From Colwellia sp. (GTDB lineage: Bacteria; Pseudomonadota; Gammaproteobacteria; Enterobacterales; Alteromonadaceae), in the NCBI RefSeq assembly GCF_013215345.1, contig NZ_JABSOV010000014.1, positions 13,602 to 54,860 of the forward strand: a stretch of DNA of 41,259 bases. Direction: 5' to 3'. Both the position numbers and the translations under genes were made by a program. The notes beneath the pieces are model-generated. The model was not told the DNA's origin. It made no database searches and saw only the letters and a list, made by a program, of their open reading frames with translations. Position 1 is the stretch's first letter, and every line of letters begins with the position of its first letter. Positions 13,606-25,791 of this stretch are shown here, one piece after another.

Positions 13606-13704
13606 TTGCCTGATAAACATAATAAACATGTGCTAAATCAAACTATCCTTAAGTAAACACTAGAAATTACAAAGTTGTTACAAAACTATACCTCATAGCC
13701 ATTG

Positions 13705-13727
13705 CTAATGATAATAATTATCATTAG
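13705..13727. promoter_or_regulatory. Fur box upstream of the TonB-dependent receptor
   Basis: Two 11-bp arms, CTAATGATAAT at 13705-13715 and ATTATCATTAG at 13717-13727, form a perfect palindrome around one central base. This closely fits the Fur operator consensus built from GATAAT and ATTATC units. It lies 65-90 bp before the receptor ATG. A candidate -10 (TATACT, 13743-13748) follows, so the site would cover the -35 region and Fur with iron would block transcription. Confidence 0.85.
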
Positions 13728-13792
13728 ACTTCGCGCTATTATTATACTGTACGCTTGTTTTACTCTTATATTCATTAAGGTTTGAGTTATTT

Positions 13793-15949
13793 ATGAAGTT
13801 TTCTCCCCTATTTTTAGCCGTCAGCGCGATACTTTCTTCGACAGCCGTTTCTGCTAATACTGTTGCCAATACAGCTGATAATGCTACTAATACCACTGAC
13901 GCTCCTACAGCAAAGGTTGTCGCTGATTCAACAGAGACTAAAGCACTTAAAGATATTGAAGTGATTCAAGTTAAAGGTAGCTATTTTAATGGCTATAAAG
14001 TTGATAATGCTAACGGTGCTTTGCGCGGTAATATCTCTTTATTAGAAACTGCACAATCGGTCACCGTTATTCCAGCTACGGTAATTAACGAGCAATTAGC
14101 CACCACTTTAGGTGAAGTACTCGTTAATGACGCCAGCTTAACCGCAGGATCTAAGCAACGTAACCGTGAAGTATTTAGTTTACGTGGTTTTGAATTAAGC
14201 TCTTCAAATGGTTATTTACGTGACGGTCATCAACATTGGTCTCATTACCAACAGCCAATTGAAACACTAGAAAGCATTGAAGTTATCAAGGGACCTTCAA
14301 GTATTTTATACGGTCAATCAGGTCCTGGTGGCTTAGTTAATATGGTTACCAAAAAACCAACCACTAACTCTATCTTTAATCTAGGTTTAGATGTTGATCA
14401 AGAAGGTTCATCTCGCCTGACATTGGATGCAGGTGGTGCAATAACTGAAGATGAGTCACTACGTTACCGCGCTAACTTAGTTAAGCAAGATGTCACTTAT
14501 CAACGTGAATACCAAAACGGTGAGCAAAGAGAGCGTGAGCGTTTCCTTGGTGCCTTGGTAGTTGATTATGATATTAATGACGATTTACTCGTGCGTTTTC
14601 ATTATGATAAAACCAATGATAAAGCCGGTTTAGATACTGGTGCTTGGTTAGATGATGACGGTAATGTTATTGGCGATGATAAAACCATTCGTGATATGTC
14701 ATGGGCCTTTACTGATATTACCGTTGAAAACTACGGTGTTGATGCCAGCTATATTATCAATGATGCTTGGCAAGTGAAATTTGGCTATAACGAGCAGACA
14801 TTTGAACGTCAACGTTTTGAATCAGCAGCGAAAAAACCGAGTGATTTTGTCGAAGGAGACAGCTACACCTCAAAACCTTATGACCGCTTTGATGATTGGC
14901 AGTTCACCACCAGCTTTATTGACTTTACTGGTGAATTCGAACTTGCCGGTGTAGAGCATACCTTACTTGTTGGTGCTAACTACCTTGATTATTACTACGG
15001 TCAATTAAAAGTAAAAGGCGAGTCATTTGAGTACTCTGCTGGCCAAGTTGAGCCACCGCGCCCTGATATTAGTTACACCACAGATGACAGCCTTTATACC
15101 AGTGAATACGATTATTACGGTATTTATATTCAAGATTTGATCACCATTAACCAAAAATGGCAAGTAATGATTGGCGGTCGCTACGATAAACAAAGTAAAA
15201 CCGGTGCTGATAATGAATCATTATTACCTAAAGCTGGTGTACTTTATCATCCAAGTGAAAATGCCACTTTCTATGCCAGCTACAGTGAAGGTTTTGAGCC
15301 ACAGAGCAGTGAAACTATTAATGATGACGAAGATTTAAACTATGGCATGGAAATCGATGCCATGACTTCAAAACAATATGAGCTTGGTGCTAAATGGCAA
15401 CTATTGGATGATCGTTTGTTACTAACTACAGCAATATTCGACATCACTAAGTCTGGTGTATTAGTTACTGAGTATAATGAAGATGATAGCTACCGCACTT
15501 CACAAGTAGGTGAACAGCGTCATAAAGGTTTTGAAGTGGCCGCACAAGGTGCAGTAACCGATAAACTTTTTGTTATGGCCTCTATGATGAACCTTGATGC
15601 CACTTATGAAAATGATGAAGAATACACTGGCATGACACCTATTGATGCACCAGAGTGGTCAGCGTCGCTTTGGTCACGTTATGAATTGACTGAAAACCTA
15701 GCTATTAATGCTGGTGCTTTTTATGAAGGTGAGCGCTTTGCTAACCAAGATAACACAGTAGTAAAAGATGCTTATACTCGTATTGATGTCGGTGCTACTT
15801 ATAAAATAGCCCTACAAAATACCGACATTAACTTACGCTTTAATGTGCAAAACTTACTTGATACCGACTACCTAGCCGGTGGTGGTACTTCTAACGTAAC
15901 CGTTGGTGACGGCATTAGCTACCGCCTTGCTGTACAAGTTGCTTTTTAG
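13793..15949 (+). CDS. TonB-dependent siderophore receptor
   Basis: A 718-residue outer-membrane receptor. A signal peptide (residues 1-22, ending STAVSAN) is followed by a low-complexity Ala/Thr/Asn linker. The plug domain (~55-210) contains LLETAQSVTVIP, REVFSLRGFEL and the strongly typical IETLESIEVIKGPSSILYGQ and GPGGLVNMVTKKP. A 22-strand barrel follows, ending in YRLAVQVAF with the terminal Phe needed for BAM assembly. IEVIQVKGS near residue 57 may be the TonB box. The plug motif puts it with the ferric-siderophore (FhuA/FhuE/FpvA-like) class. The nearby Fur box indicates induction under iron limitation. No synthesis or inner-membrane transport genes are adjacent, so the ligand may be a foreign siderophore. 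Confidence 0.93.
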   Translation: MKFSPLFLAVSAILSSTAVSANTVANTADNATNTTDAPTAKVVADSTETKALKDIEVIQVKGSYFNGYKVDNANGALRGNISLLETAQSVTVIPATVINEQLATTLGEVLVNDASLTAGSKQRNREVFSLRGFELSSSNGYLRDGHQHWSHYQQPIETLESIEVIKGPSSILYGQSGPGGLVNMVTKKPTTNSIFNLGLDVDQEGSSRLTLDAGGAITEDESLRYRANLVKQDVTYQREYQNGEQRERERFLGALVVDYDINDDLLVRFHYDKTNDKAGLDTGAWLDDDGNVIGDDKTIRDMSWAFTDITVENYGVDASYIINDAWQVKFGYNEQTFERQRFESAAKKPSDFVEGDSYTSKPYDRFDDWQFTTSFIDFTGEFELAGVEHTLLVGANYLDYYYGQLKVKGESFEYSAGQVEPPRPDISYTTDDSLYTSEYDYYGIYIQDLITINQKWQVMIGGRYDKQSKTGADNESLLPKAGVLYHPSENATFYASYSEGFEPQSSETINDDEDLNYGMEIDAMTSKQYELGAKWQLLDDRLLLTTAIFDITKSGVLVTEYNEDDSYRTSQVGEQRHKGFEVAAQGAVTDKLFVMASMMNLDATYENDEEYTGMTPIDAPEWSASLWSRYELTENLAINAGAFYEGERFANQDNTVVKDAYTRIDVGATYKIALQNTDINLRFNVQNLLDTDYLAGGGTSNVTVGDGISYRLAVQVAF

Positions 15950-21165: not shown

Positions 21166-22800
21166 ATGGATTTTTTACGTAAATTCAGCATACAGCAAAG
21201 GTTAGCCATGCTGGTGGTTTTAATTATTATTGGTATCACTGCGCTAGGTGCCATAAGCTTGTCAGAAGAATACCATTCCTTAATGGCACAAAAAAAATTC
21301 ACCACCAACGAATTAATAGATAGCACTTACGGCATTGTGGAACATCAATATAGCTTGCAGCAAAAAGGGGAGCTTACTGAGGTACAAGCACAAAAACAGG
21401 CTTTAAGTATTATTGCCAGTTTGCGCTACGATACCAACAATTATTTTTGGGTTAACGACTTTACCCCGAACATGATAATGCACCCAATAAAACCACAACT
21501 CAATGGCAAGAATATCGGTGGTGTGAAAGACCCTGATGGCAAAGCTTTATTTATTGATATGGTGAATATAGTCAAGGCTAAGGGGGAAGGTTTTGTTTAC
21601 TACAAATGGACTAAACCTGGCTTTGATGATCCGGTCGACAAAATTGGTTTTGTTAAAGGCTTCACTCCTTGGCAATGGATTATTGGTACAGGCACCTACC
21701 TAGATGATATTGATGCGACCTTTGCCGAGCAACGCAATATGATCATAATAAATAGCGTTGTTATTACCCTTGTGATCATTGGCTTAAGTTATGTTATTGG
21801 TAATAGCATCTTAGTTCCGACCAGATCAGCGGCTGAATTAATGAAAGATATTGCCCAAGGTGATGGTGATCTGACCAAGTCTTTAGATGATAGCGGTCAA
21901 GATGAAATTTCTCGCTTATCTAACTACTTTAATGAGTTCACTGGTAAAATGCGGCAGTTATTACAAGATGTCGCCAATAATACCTCACAAGTTTTAGACC
22001 ATGCCGAAGCTGTTTCTGGCGCTAGTGATACCACTCAATCGTTAATACAAAACCAAAACGACATTACCGTGCAAGTGGCCACTGCAATGGAAGAGATGAC
22101 CTCACAAATTAAGGAAGTGAGTGATAATGCTAGCTCTGCTGAGCAAGCCGCAAATGATGCCAGAAATAACACCTCTGACGGCAAAGAAATCATCTCTCAT
22201 ACCATCAAACAAATGCAATCTCTGTCGAGCAATATTGATGAAGTTAGTCAAGTGGTTGCCAGCCTTGCTTCTGAAAGTGACAATATTGGCTCTGTTCTGG
22301 ATGTGATTAGAGGCATTGCTGAGCAAACAAATTTGTTAGCGCTAAACGCCGCGATAGAAGCTGCACGCGCTGGTGAGCAAGGCCGTGGTTTTGCCGTGGT
22401 AGCCGATGAAGTGCGTACTTTAGCTAATCGTACTGAACAAAGCACCAATGAAATTCAACAAATGATACAAAAATTACAAGCTGGAGCGCAAGAAGCCGTA
22501 GCAGCGGTGAAAGTCAGCCAAGACATTTCTCTGAAAACCGTTGAGCAAACAGCAAAGGCAGATGATTCCCTTTCTGAAATTGACCGTTTGATGGAAGTTA
22601 TTTCTGATATGAATACACAAATAGCCAGAGCGACTGAACAACAAAGCCAAGCTGCTGATGAGGTTAATTTACGTATTAATGATTTAGCGGGAATGACCGA
22701 TGAGTCTCTCGCGACTACCGAACAGCTTAGTGAAACGAGCCAGAAATTGAAGGTCAGCAGTAATGCCATGTCTGAGGTTGTTGGTCGCTTTAAAATTTAG
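21166..22800 (+). CDS. Methyl-accepting chemotaxis protein with single Cache domain
   Basis: A 544-residue receptor. The first membrane helix is at ~12-30, and a periplasmic sCache_2 domain at ~40-185 contains [20 protein letters not shown] and [19 protein letters not shown]. The second helix (~190-212) leads to a HAMP domain and a signalling coiled coil. The hairpin tip ([24 protein letters not shown]) is the nearly invariant CheA/CheW-binding region. No C-terminal CheR pentapeptide is present, since it ends VVGRFKI. sCache_2 receptors often bind small carboxylates such as pyruvate or propionate, which suits the neighbourhood, but the ligand is unproven. The gene follows the symporter-kinase by 130 bp and may have its own promoter. 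Confidence 0.95.
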
Positions 22801-22859: not shown

Positions 22860-23058
22860 TAAAAAAACCAGTAATATTTGTCGATTAAGAGAATATTACT
22901 GGCTAAACCATCAAAAATTTAAAGTCGAATTGAACTGAGTAAAACTCGGTAGAATCCTAAAGTAGTCACTTAATGGTTATGTGTCCTGAAGCATAACCAC
23001 TAAGTTCCGTACTTTGCTATTGCTTATTTAGTGAGAGAGCATTCACTGCCTAAGCAAC
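22860..23058 (-). ncRNA. Candidate Fur-regulated small RNA, copy 1 (downstream copy)
   Basis: A minus-strand transcription unit of about 199 nt with no ORF. The -35 is TTGACA (23088-23093), the spacer 17 bp and the -10 TATCAT (23065-23070), giving +1 near 23058. A 5' hairpin (outer arms 23020-23026/23051-23057, inner arms 23030-23034/23043-23047) shows a C/U-rich loop (AUGCUCUC on the RNA). A long hairpin has arms 22969-22981/22992-23004. An intrinsic terminator with U-run ends it at 22861. Copy 2 lies 285 bp away with the same plan, and several substitutions preserve pairing. The architecture resembles iron-starvation RyhB/PrrF sRNAs. I do not see a clear RyhB core sequence, so homology is not claimed. 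Confidence 0.8.
22861..22903 (-). terminator. Terminator of sRNA copy 1
   Basis: On the minus strand CCAGTAATATT pairs perfectly with AATATTACTGG (arms 22892-22902 and 22868-22878) around a 13-nt loop, followed by a run of seven T. Confidence 0.88.
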
Positions 23059-23063
23059 AAGGT

Positions 23064-23093
23064 AATGATAATCATTCTCATTTATATTGTCAA
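23064..23093 (-). promoter_or_regulatory. Fur box overlapping the sRNA copy 1 promoter
   Basis: AATGATAATCATTCTCATT at 23064-23082 matches the Fur operator pattern and covers the -10 and most of the spacer. The -35 TTGACA and -10 TATCAT on the minus strand are separated by exactly 17 bp, a near-consensus sigma-70 promoter. Fur with iron would therefore repress; iron limitation would induce. Confidence 0.82.
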
Positions 23094-23141
23094 CACTATT
23101 TGTTAAATTTTATTAAATATTAATTTTTTGATATTACAGGC

Positions 23142-23187
23142 ATAAAAAAGCCAGTAACACATTTCCATCAAGAAAATGTTACTGGCT
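23142..23187 (-). terminator. Terminator of sRNA copy 2
   Basis: AGCCAGTAA-CATTT pairs with AAATG-TG-TTACTGGCT on the minus strand (outer arms 23179-23187 and 23149-23157), with a two-base bulge, and is followed by TTTTTTATG. Confidence 0.85.
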
Positions 23188-23343
23188 AAACCATCAAAAA
23201 TTTTAAAGTCGAATTGAACTGAGCAGAACTCGGTAGAATCCTAAAGTGGTCACTTAGTGGTTATGTGTCCTGGAGCATAACCACTAAGTTCCATACTTTA
23301 CTGCTGCTTATTTAGTGAGAGAGCATTCACTGCCTAAGCAACT
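23142..23343 (-). ncRNA. Candidate Fur-regulated small RNA, copy 2 (upstream copy)
   Basis: A minus-strand unit of about 202 nt. The -35 is TTGACT (23373-23378), the spacer 17 bp and the -10 TATTAT (23350-23355), with +1 near 23343. The body is nearly identical to copy 1, including the GCTTAGGCAGTGAATGCTC 5' segment. The long hairpin has arms 23253-23265/23276-23288 and is fully Watson-Crick here, where copy 1 has a G-U pair. The terminator stem is different in sequence but equally stable. The promoter begins only about 35 bp after the tex stop codon. No ORF is visible. It may act additively or with distinct targets, as proposed for PrrF1/PrrF2 in Pseudomonas. Confidence 0.8.
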
Positions 23344-23349
23344 AACCAA

Positions 23350-23378
23350 ATAATAATCATTCTCATTACGAGAGTCAA
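23350..23378 (-). promoter_or_regulatory. Fur box overlapping the sRNA copy 2 promoter
   Basis: AATAATAATCATTCTCATT at 23349-23367 is a one-base variant of the copy 1 Fur box and again covers the -10 and spacer of a TTGACT-17-TATTAT promoter on the minus strand. Confidence 0.78.
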
Positions 23379-23412
23379 CACTATTTTAACAATTAATTTA
23401 AAATAGTTGTTT

Positions 23413-25791
23413 TTATTTTTTCAGCTTAGCAAAAGCATCGGCGAAAGCGTTACCCATAGCGGCATTGTCCACTTTTTTACCTTTTGATTTATTTTGATTT
23501 ACTGCAGGTTTTCCTTGATTATTCCTACTGTTCATCTGATTTTTTGCTTTATTGTTATCACCTTTACCATTATCTTTTGTCTGAAAAGGCTTGTTAGTGG
23601 CTGCGTTAACTTGCTCATCTAAGCGCATCGTTAAACTGATACGCTTGCGAGCAACATCAATTTCCAACACTTTCACCTTAACAATATCCCCCGCCTTGAC
23701 AATTTCCCGCGGGTCACTGATAAATTTATTAGTTATTGAAGAAATATGTACTAGCCCATCTTGATGCACACCAATATCAACAAAAGCACCAAAGTTAGCA
23801 ACATTAGAAACCACTCCTTCAAGTATCATACCTAAGGTTAAATCTGCCATGCTAGTTACACCTTCAGCAAAACTAGCTGTTTTAAACTCAGGACGTGGAT
23901 CTCTATTCGGTTTTGTTAGCTCATCAATAATTCCTTTTACCGTGACGGCACCAAAATCATCATTTGTTAACTTGCTTATGTCTAAAGCACTTAATTGTGC
24001 ACTGTTATTTAGCACCTGAGAGATATCAAGTTGTAATGTCTTGATTATCTTCTCTACCAAGGCATAACTTTCCGGGTGCAAAGCAGATTGGTCTAATGGA
24101 TTATCACCACCTGTAATACGTAAAAAACCCGCTGATTGTTCAAAAGCTTTCGGCCCTAAACGGGCAACTTTTTTCAATTGCTTTCTATTAGTAAAGCGCC
24201 CTTCACTATCTCGAAAAGCAACAATGTTATTAGCCATGGTTTTGTTTAACCCTGAAACACGGGTTAATAACGCTGCAGAGGCACTGTTTAAGTCAACACC
24301 AACAGCATTTACACAATCTTCAACGACATCATCAAGGGTTTTACTCAACTGGCTCTGGCTAACGTCATGCTGATATTGACCGACACCTATTGCTTTAGGG
24401 TCAATTTTGACTAACTCAGCTAAGGGATCTTGTAATCGTCGAGCAATGGAAACAGCACCCCGTATTGTCACATCAAGGTCTGGAAATTCATTGGCGGCAA
24501 ATTCAGAGGCAGAATACACAGATGCGCCCGCTTCACTGACAATCATTTTAATAAGTTGAACTTTGCTTTCATCAGCTTTAAAAATTTGCATAACTTCAGC
24601 AACTAATTTATCACTTTCACGAGAGCCGGTGCCATTACCAATAGCCACTAACTCGACTTTATGTTGACGACAAATATTAACTAAGGTTCTTACTGACTTA
24701 TCCCAATGATTTTGCGGCGCATGTGGGAAGATGGTAGCTGTATGTAATAACTTACCGGTGCCATCGACAATAGCAATTTTACAGCCTGTTCTTAAACCAG
24801 GATCTAAACCCAAGGTGACTTGTGGACCAGCAGGAGCAGCCATCAATAAATCGGCAAGGTTATTAGAGAAAACATCTATCGCCTGGGTTTCAGCTTGCTC
24901 ACGTAAGCTAGTTACCAATTCATTAGTTAAACTGATACTTAATTTAGCTTTCCAAGTGAGTTGTACAACCTTAGTTAAAAACTCAGCAGCGGCCTGATTA
25001 GTTAAGCGTAAAGTTAAGTGCTCGCTAATCATTTGCTCAGCACTACTGCATACCCTTGCCTCTTCTCCGGGATCGACATCGATATGAAGTTGTAAAAACC
25101 CTTCATTTCGGCCACGCAACATCGCTAACATACGATGGGAAGGTACGGTTCTTAGTTTTTCACTGTGCGCAAAGTAGTCTCTAAACTTGGCACCAGCTTT
25201 CTCTTGGCCTTTAACTAGTTTGCTGGTTAAGTGTGCTTGCTTTAATAAGTGACGACGTAGCTTTGCTAATAAATTGGCATCTTCGCTAAAACGTTCGGCC
25301 AAAATATAACTCGCGCCATCAAGTACCGACTTTACATCAGTAAATCCTGCCGCCTGATTAATAAAAGCTTTTGCTTCTTGTTCGGGAGAAAGTTGCCAGT
25401 TATTAAATAGTTTGTTCGCTAAAGGCGCTATACCTGCCTCACTGGCAATCTTGCCTTTAGTACGGCGCTTCGGCTTATAGGGTAAATATAAATCTTCTAA
25501 GCGGGTTTTATTATCGGCTTGCAGAATTGATTTTTCCAGCTCAGGGCTGAGTTTATCTTGCTACTAAATACTCGTTAAAATAACTTTTCGGCGATCATTT
25601 AACTCACGTAAATAGCTTAACCGCTGTGCTAAGTGACGAAGATGGTTATCATCTAAACCTTGGGTAACTTCTTTACGGTAACGGGCAATAAATGGCACGG
25701 TAGCACCATCATCAAGCAAGGTAATAGCGGCATTAATTTGTACCGCGTTAACATTGAGTTCTTGAGCGATTTGCTCGGCAATAGTTAACAT
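23413..25791 (-). pseudogene. tex: tex, RNA-binding transcriptional accessory protein, interrupted by two adjacent TAG codons
   Basis: The frame from ATG 25791 to the stop at 23413 equals 792 codons, the usual Tex length. It is broken at 25566-25561 by TAG TAG, directly after RRKVILTSI. Without them the product continues as [13 protein letters not shown] and [19 protein letters not shown], then the YqgF-like domain ([18 protein letters not shown]), helix-hairpin-helix motifs ([16 protein letters not shown]) and a C-terminal S1 domain ([21 protein letters not shown]) with a basic tail. Family members usually have two acidic residues where the stops lie. Everything else is intact, including the 629 codons from ATG 25302. 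It is a recent nonsense allele, a sequence error, or a split gene with internal re-initiation lacking the N-terminal domain. Confidence 0.85.

Follow-up and report, generated by a model that had tools for sequence, protein, structure and literature searches.

The known systems that most resemble the locus described here include the iron-sparing small RNAs (sRNAs) RyhB and PrrF. In P. aeruginosa, PrrF is likewise encoded in tandem, and a longer RNA generated by read-through is known as PrrH (PMC2851614). Besides, iscS is listed with references for regulation by RyhB or PrrF in Table 1 of PMC7377471. The window analysed in this study, i.e., the whole stretch of 41,259 nucleotides from a Colwellia sp. 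genome, carries two short units that a first-pass annotation had read as an iron-sparing riboregulator of RyhB/PrrF-like architecture and possibly a new family, an interpretation that our sequence-based analyses support. Colwellia and its relatives live in the sea, often in cold waters, and much of the ocean is poor in iron. The full-text matches listed by our literature search, drawn mostly from outside the subscription journals, contained no report of an iron-sparing RNA in these bacteria. We consider it probable that a single trans-acting, Fur-repressed iron-sparing sRNA is encoded in tandem by the two units, and that it is equipped with two target-specific loops and belongs to a family separate from RyhB and PrrF.

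Tandem units downstream of tex and their distribution

Two minus-strand units of ~200 nt each, 285 bp apart, are located between tex and a chemoreceptor gene. Promoters, Fur boxes, folds and conservation all confirm this layout, which had been proposed from the letters alone. The features are as follows.

23413..25302, minus strand: tex, same-strand upstream neighbour
23350..23378, minus strand: promoter of unit A (the tex-proximal unit), TTGACT-17-TATTAT, from the promoter scan
23346..23370, minus strand: Fur box lying over the -10 element of unit A; 14/19 at 23346-23364 and 13/19 at 23352
23144..23343, minus strand: sRNA unit A, ~200 nt; start deduced from the promoter position, end set by the T tail
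23303..23342, minus strand: hairpin 1 of unit A; 8-nt loop AUGCUCUC at 23326-23319, predicted seed for the Shine-Dalgarno regions of sodB and acn
23252..23289, minus strand: hairpin 2 of unit A, 14 bp; loop CUCCAGGACA at 23275-23266 with the core CAGGAC, predicted partner sdhC codons 5-7
23191..23207, minus strand: A/U-rich conserved stretch UUUAAAAUUUUUGAUGG of unit A, 5' of the terminator; putatively Hfq-site-like
23144..23187, minus strand: intrinsic terminator and T6 tail of unit A, from the fold
23065..23093, minus strand: promoter of unit B, TTGACA-17-TATCAT, from the promoter scan
23061..23079, minus strand: Fur box of unit B, 17/19 by consensus scoring
22862..23058, minus strand: sRNA unit B, ~197 nt, from sequence and fold
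23019..23058, minus strand: hairpin 1 of unit B; loop AUGCUCUC at 23042-23035
22968..23005, minus strand: hairpin 2 of unit B; core CAGGAC at 22988-22983
22861..22904, minus strand: intrinsic terminator and T7 tail of unit B, from the fold
21166..22800, plus strand: gene for a methyl-accepting chemoreceptor (assigned from its sequence), convergent with the units

The two bodies share 88% identity over 248 bases. Terminator stems with T6-T7 tails are visible in both folds, in agreement with the strong U-tailed terminators noticed at first; a simple terminator scan listed none. The bodies had been described as free of open reading frames, and the longest frame on the RNA strand is indeed 16 codons, a 16-codon GTG frame being present in both units of this genome. 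We rejected a protein-coding or dual-function RNA, as MELSGYAPGHITTK occurs in unit A only and its ATG in 7 of the 38 aligned units. A five-codon frame, MLQDT, which was absent by eye from L143 and L145-L147, was set aside as a by-product of stem complementarity.

A scan of 1.3 kb gave 5 promoter-like sites, of which the promoters of units A and B are the best two; the count is uninformative by itself because shuffles contain 4.0 such sites on average. By sequence, the units carry Fur-box promoters of the RyhB type, and the Fur-like boxes reported over both promoters reappeared when scored against the 19-mer Fur consensus GATAATGATAATCATTATC. Six sites in the window score at least 14/19 and two at least 16/19; 40 simulated windows held a mean of 1.0 site at the lower level and none at the higher. 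A double Fur box (17/19 and an overlapping 15/19) was noticed at 13704-13728, just upstream of a gene for a TonB-dependent receptor (13793-15949, plus strand, named from its sequence). Its 17/19 site at 13704 is a natural positive control, and this strong box suggests that the Fur motif is used in this genome.

A DNA search (E < 1e-9) gave matches in 32 of 37 same-genus (Colwellia) genomes, the present one included; the match in G027 covers the tail only, so 31 of 37 were counted as carrying matching DNA. The same search found no matching DNA in G005, G007, G017, G030 and G031. Conservation on this scale excludes a chance origin of the units. The loop-1 motif was found in 47 distinct segments of the fetched loci, and a Fur box of at least 13/19 lies upstream of 43 of the 46 units with 75 nt of upstream sequence; of the other three, one scores 12/19 and two are the second bodies within fused units. 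CAGGAC occupies its usual place in 44 of the 46, the exceptions (L019 and L020) holding an insertion. In these two genomes, an inserted element splits the sRNA unit (positions 1200-1650).

Conservation of the location beside tex had been proposed as a check. A Fur box and then the loop-2 core follow tex within 700 nt in 21 of 41 tex loci (L033-L073; records named Colwellia, Litorilituus, Pseudocolwellia, Cognaticolwellia, Thalassotalea, Thalassomonas and an Alteromonadaceae bacterium), and the 20 loci without a unit include two with only 32 and 125 bases downstream. By tblastn, 4 of 20 loci have a relative of the chemoreceptor gene next to the unit. Copy numbers range from one in L039 (C. piezophila) over two to three complete copies and a cut fourth in L008; L055 retains the 3' end of a unit only. 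In L016 and L073, two bodies are fused behind one promoter; by eye, the fused unit (L016 1560-1900, L073 6120-6460) has one Fur promoter, three CAGGAC hairpin loops and a single terminator.

Divergent relatives of the unit were found in eight further genera. R1, a covariance model of hairpins 1 and 2, matched 35 of 395 family genomes (Infernal with stricter filters, E <= 0.1), 29 of which belong to the genus Colwellia; the six matches outside the genus comprise three in g32 and one each in g50, g64 and g72. A Fur box promoter is present in all six and likewise in the tex loci of Thalassomonas and DT_5; all except g50 have the GGAC-loop hairpin. Loop 1 is a different sequence, CACUACUAC, in g32, g65 and g70, for which the corresponding Shine-Dalgarno regions would be GUAGUAGUG-like. 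In a member from outside the genus Colwellia (G085, L148 1018-1120), loop 1 is kept and the GGAC loop of hairpin 2 is lost.

The Fur box also served as a check on R2, a second covariance model built without the promoter and run on 40 family genomes, 20 with the CGUCC form of sdhC (one of which, G068, actually reads CGUCCAG) and 20 with another form. The genera g32, g64 and probably g38 are represented in R2, and g65, g70 and g57 are not. All six hits with E < 0.05 (two in g38 and one each in g64, g65, g70 and g57) have a Fur box in place, five with 14-15/19 by script and L252 by eye; the -35 element of L250 and L252 is TTTACA rather than TTGACA. The four hits with E > 0.1 have no Fur box and were taken as chance. 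Raw hits fell in 9 of the 20 CGUCC-form genomes versus none of the 20 others. Three of these nine genomes and a second hit in G100 were not accepted because they lack a Fur box, which leaves 14 of the 20 CGUCC-form genomes without an accepted hit. The accepted count of 6 versus 0 is not independent evidence, since the sdhC forms follow clades and shared ancestry may explain it.

Conserved structure, strand and comparison with known RNA families

Each unit beat 200 of 200 shuffles in folding (z of -5.8 and -6.6). RNAalifold missed hairpin 1 on the untrimmed alignment, in which two clades were offset by one base; the alignment was redone and the units were folded row by row. Alignment A1 comprises 38 units, the empty L032 row, L016 and both L018 rows having been left out of 42 references. 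Over these units, 98.0% of the 1026 cells of hairpins 1 and 2 are paired, compared with 26-47% for slid structures used as a control, and both sides have changed in 10 of 27 pairs; none of 500 shuffles reached any of the five measures used. The second set of 23 rows, i.e., 16 of the genus, one divergent genus copy and six from other genera, gave both sides changed in 23 of 27 pairs (0 of 500 shuffles), and in its hairpin 2 both sides have changed in 11 of 14 pairs around a constant GGAC, a motif that also served to position these rows. CAGGAC is kept in all 38 rows of A1, which were not chosen by loop 2. Thus, the GGAC invariance in A1 is not built in, unlike that of loop 1, by whose motif the rows were found. 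The GGAC invariance in alignment A4 is partly built in, as RGGACR was used to locate its rows and L148, which lacks GGAC, was left out. Alignment A3 includes one L018 row, with duplicates removed and the ends set with CAGGAC. On the minus-strand reading, we counted 90 G-U cells versus 5 A-C cells, and the minus-strand RNA is therefore the selected molecule.

These data bear on the idea that the units are a cis element or a leftover repeat, such as duplications of the tex terminator or MITE-like copies, with no role in trans. Their tandem position just downstream of tex and the insertion inside two relatives (L019 and L020) would agree with it. Nevertheless, nearly all copies read have a Fur promoter of their own, the stems covary, the loops are kept, and members in g32, g50, g57, g65 and g70 have no tex match in the 1.9-3.1 kb examined; for these reasons we regard a cis element or repeat as extremely unlikely. 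The present genome has two copies, each with a promoter, rather than a scattered promoterless repeat, and no third copy was found in it, the third row of the search being a hairpin that matches its own complement. A plasmid or phage element was also rejected, one search having returned 8 short matches that cover 7-9% of the query and another none.

The first-pass annotation had proposed a search with the RyhB and PrrF models of Rfam. Neither the window nor any of 15 related loci reached the threshold of a family in Rfam 15, which separates the units from RyhB. None of 23 same-genus genomes scored above the cut-off of the RyhB model (RF00057), compared with 2 of 14 genomes from other families of the order; in one genome of another family of the order (G037:C1:104133-104577), a tandem pair of RyhB-like hits was noticed that stays under the cut-off. 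The PrrF model (RF00444) gave weak hits of 17.3 and 16.6 bits, where 90 are required, and in these the promoter part alone was aligned; these hits, RUF3 and other weak Rfam hits were rejected. The model for CsrB-type sponges (RF00018) had no match in the window, and each unit has one conserved GGA loop. Elsewhere in the same genome (C117; L157 1-420), we noticed a CsrB-like RNA that is rich in GGA motifs and scores under the Rfam cut-off.

A very diverged orthologue of RyhB or PrrF would show the same predicted control and targets, and PrrF is also tandem in P. aeruginosa (PMC2851614). Nevertheless, neither the window nor the 15 related loci gave an Rfam match at the gathering score, the weak PrrF hits cover the promoter only, and both structure and seed differ. 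We hence give such orthology hardly any weight, and treat the units as a separate family below.

Predicted targets of the two loops

Pairing of a single 5' hairpin loop with Shine-Dalgarno-like sequences had been suggested at the outset. The complementarity of that loop, AUGCUCUC, to sequences of the GAGAGCAU type held up, and complementary sites were found in all three candidates proposed for checking, i.e., sdh, acn and sodB; the single seed was refined to two seed loops. Loop 1 fits the Shine-Dalgarno region of sodB in 22 of 23 genomes and that of an AcnB-type aconitase in 24 of 24. At sodB (23 of 24 loci were read, L301 being cut by a contig end), GAGAG is present at the Shine-Dalgarno site in 22 of the 23 genomes, extended to GAGAGC in 17 and to GAGAGCAU in 6. 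Of the six starts without GAGAGC, five have GAGAGU and one has GAGAAC; the latter is from G005, in which no full unit was found. In G007 and G017, where no unit was found, sodB still reads GAGAGC.

As a background, we used 285 gene starts picked by a simple rule from 20 evenly spaced stretches of the same-genus genome G032. For 20 of the 23 sodB genes, at most 5 of these 285 starts are as good, and for 22 of the 24 aconitases at most 7 (4 for the aconitase of the present genome). The sodB of the present genome reads GAGAGUACC, and 15 of the 285 starts score equally well. Permuted versions of loop 1 do as well in 1 of 400 cases for sodB and 0 of 400 for the aconitase. The AcnB-type aconitase has GAGAG in all 24 genomes and up to 11 contiguous pairs with loop 1; its open frames span 931-963 codons, and its best match is NCBIfam NF006690, below the curated cut-off (495 residues compared). 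The classical AcnB starts beside it match loop 1 in 2 of 11 cases only. A divergent pair of adjacent AcnB-type aconitase genes is present in 11 of 25 same-genus genomes (L261, L257-L267), with broken matches in a twelfth (G008); of the paired genes, only the longer carries the loop-1 site consistently. Among the 285 sampled starts, iscS ranks fourth for loop 1 without having been selected. The starts above it are those of astA, tgt and a thioredoxin-like gene, and the sample therefore contains ordinary genes as well. Complementarity to the translation-start regions of iron-using enzymes is above background in these comparisons, a predicted property that the units share with the class of Fur-controlled iron-sparing sRNAs. 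A search of 38 same-genus genomes for the exact pattern TGAGAGAGCAT...ATG was discarded, as it gave 8 hits versus 4 for the reversed-pattern control; the eight ATGs are not gene starts, because none opens a frame longer than 15 codons.

Loop 2 (CAGGAC) is complementary to GUCCUG in sdhC codons 5-7 in 30 of 30 same-genus loci, 28 of which were aligned and two read separately, and GUCCUG occurs in 1 of the 285 sampled gene starts. The 28 aligned loci show hardly any variation in codons 1-7 (GUG AAA AAA CAA CGU CCU GUA) or in the leader from about -60 on: codon 4 has changed once, and codons 5-7 are identical in all 28, also at synonymous sites. From codon 8 onward the synonymous sites vary, and Pro codon 18 has four spellings. 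Scored on the first 10 of the 28 sdhC rows, permuted versions of the two loop-2 forms do as well in 1 and 2 of 400 cases. The 10-nt loop 2 alone is matched in its sdhC score by 5 or 0 of the 285 starts, and a longer loop-2 piece ranks sdhC merely 65 or 22 of 285. Most Colwellia loops read CAGGACA and form 6 bp with sdhC instead of 7. The A/U-rich tail was no better than background against the sdhC start region (rank 209 of 285), and pairing of the sRNA 5' end with the sdhC leader was rejected, as it fails by eye in one clade.

The question remains whether these matches could be coincidental to an RNA with another role, for instance in regulating genes for motility or the uptake of iron. Loops rich in C and U can match numerous purine-rich Shine-Dalgarno sequences (GAGAG is present in 16 of the 285 starts), just three candidate gene families were tested by design, and astA, tgt and the thioredoxin-like gene outscore iscS. 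On the other hand, all three candidates scored, the loop permutation controls gave 0-2 of 400, and iscS, a fourth gene of the RyhB type, surfaced unselected. Coincidence appears improbable to us, and pairing of both loops with mRNAs of iron-using proteins is the reading that we prefer.

The sdhC leader is conserved beyond the loop-2 site, and its near-invariance persists even in G005 and G007, two genomes in which the search found no full unit; something else may thus constrain it. In G017 (L176), where no unit was found, the leader has drifted and GUCCUG remains, and G085 has lost the loop-2 GGAC although its sdhC reads CGUCCUG. Across 147 family genomes, the 131 sdhC matches listed comprise 41 with CGUCCUGU, 4 with CGUCCAGU, 3 with CGACCAGU, 1 with AGCCCGGU and the rest with AGACCNGU, in which the third base is free. 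The leader matched no Rfam family and may have a regulatory function of its own. We also noticed that sdhC starts with GUG and is preceded by a small frame, MSNNNKS (e.g., L172 1420-1521).

Alternatively, loop 1 alone would be antisense and loop 2 would be a protein site, most likely for CsrA given the GGA in the loop, tying iron shortage to the Csr system. CAGGAC is kept in all 38 rows of A1 while the surrounding stem covaries, CAGGA resembles the CsrB repeat, GGA-rich CsrB-like candidates (below the Rfam cut-off) exist in the genus, and the fused double unit holds three such loops. Nevertheless, the C after GGA is kept here although CsrA is not known to need it, a titrator would be expected to carry more than one GGA loop per unit, and the sdhC match is rare by chance. 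In addition, the loop changes in g32 and g65 (UUAGGACGUG and UUGGGACGUG) keep or extend the pairing with sdhC ACGUCCUG, by eye via wobble pairs. Most GGA-bearing sRNAs in the CsrA targetomes of Pseudoalteromonas have one GGA, according to PMC11882849, which would agree with CsrA binding. On balance, a protein site in place of pairing seems unlikely. It is somewhat less far-fetched, albeit still speculative, that the two loops divide the work: loop 1 would read Shine-Dalgarno regions (sodB, aconitase and iscS) and be changeable between genera, and loop 2 would have been locked throughout the history of the clade to the ultraconserved leader and start of sdhC under a mutual constraint reaching down to synonymous sites, possibly recruiting CsrA as well and thereby joining iron and carbon control.

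Proposed mode of action and relation to described sRNAs

If the units are genuinely a Fur-repressed sRNA, Fur-Fe2+ would sit on the -10 element and repress both units as long as iron is present. Under iron shortage, Fur would lift and the RNA would be made, probably to be held by Hfq at the A/U-rich stretch and the U tail. The two preformed loops could then nucleate pairing with translation start regions, loop 1 covering the Shine-Dalgarno region of sodB, the AcnB-type aconitase and probably iscS, and loop 2 covering sdhC codons 5-7. Translation of iron-using proteins would be blocked, their mRNAs would probably decay, and iron would be spared. The tandem copies would raise the dose, and read-through of a terminator into a longer, PrrH-like RNA is conceivable. 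The natural variation in copy number (single, double, triple or higher, fused and lost), together with the matching target sites, makes a good system for studying sRNA-mRNA coevolution.

With RyhB, the units share the Fur-box promoter, the U-tailed terminator and the predicted targets sodB, aconitase, sdh and iscS, but they show two hairpin-loop seeds, have no match over threshold, and are about twice as long as RyhB. The family seems to be one more case in which the RyhB function arose independently. CsrB-type sponges have in common with the units a GGA within a hairpin loop; the Csr RNAs of Pseudoalteromonas, however, contain 9-25 GGA motifs (PMC11882849) versus the one conserved GGA loop per unit. 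BrrF of Burkholderia and NrrF of Neisseria have RyhB-like targets, as predicted here, and BrrF, like the units, bears no sequence similarity to known Fur-regulated sRNAs; unlike the units, BrrF is described as having no Fur box directly upstream (PMC7377471; our own comparison with BrrF and NrrF was via Rfam). IsrR of Staphylococcus and FsrA of Bacillus aim C-rich single-stranded regions at the Shine-Dalgarno sequences of mRNAs for iron enzymes, and use several regions with target-specific roles (PMC9410917), as predicted for the two loops here. They differ in that their hosts are unrelated, and in the units loop 1 is CU-rich and loop 2, which is not C-rich, aims at coding sequence. Finally, the units resemble PrrF1/PrrF2 in being tandem near-identical copies with Fur boxes, under predicted Fur control, relatives having from one to at least three complete copies; they differ in length, ~200 nt against 116 and 114 nt for the PrrF RNAs (PMC2851614). 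The units can be proposed as a new Rfam family: as far as seen, and judged from sequence comparison, this is a new RNA family of a known functional kind, neither RyhB nor PrrF.
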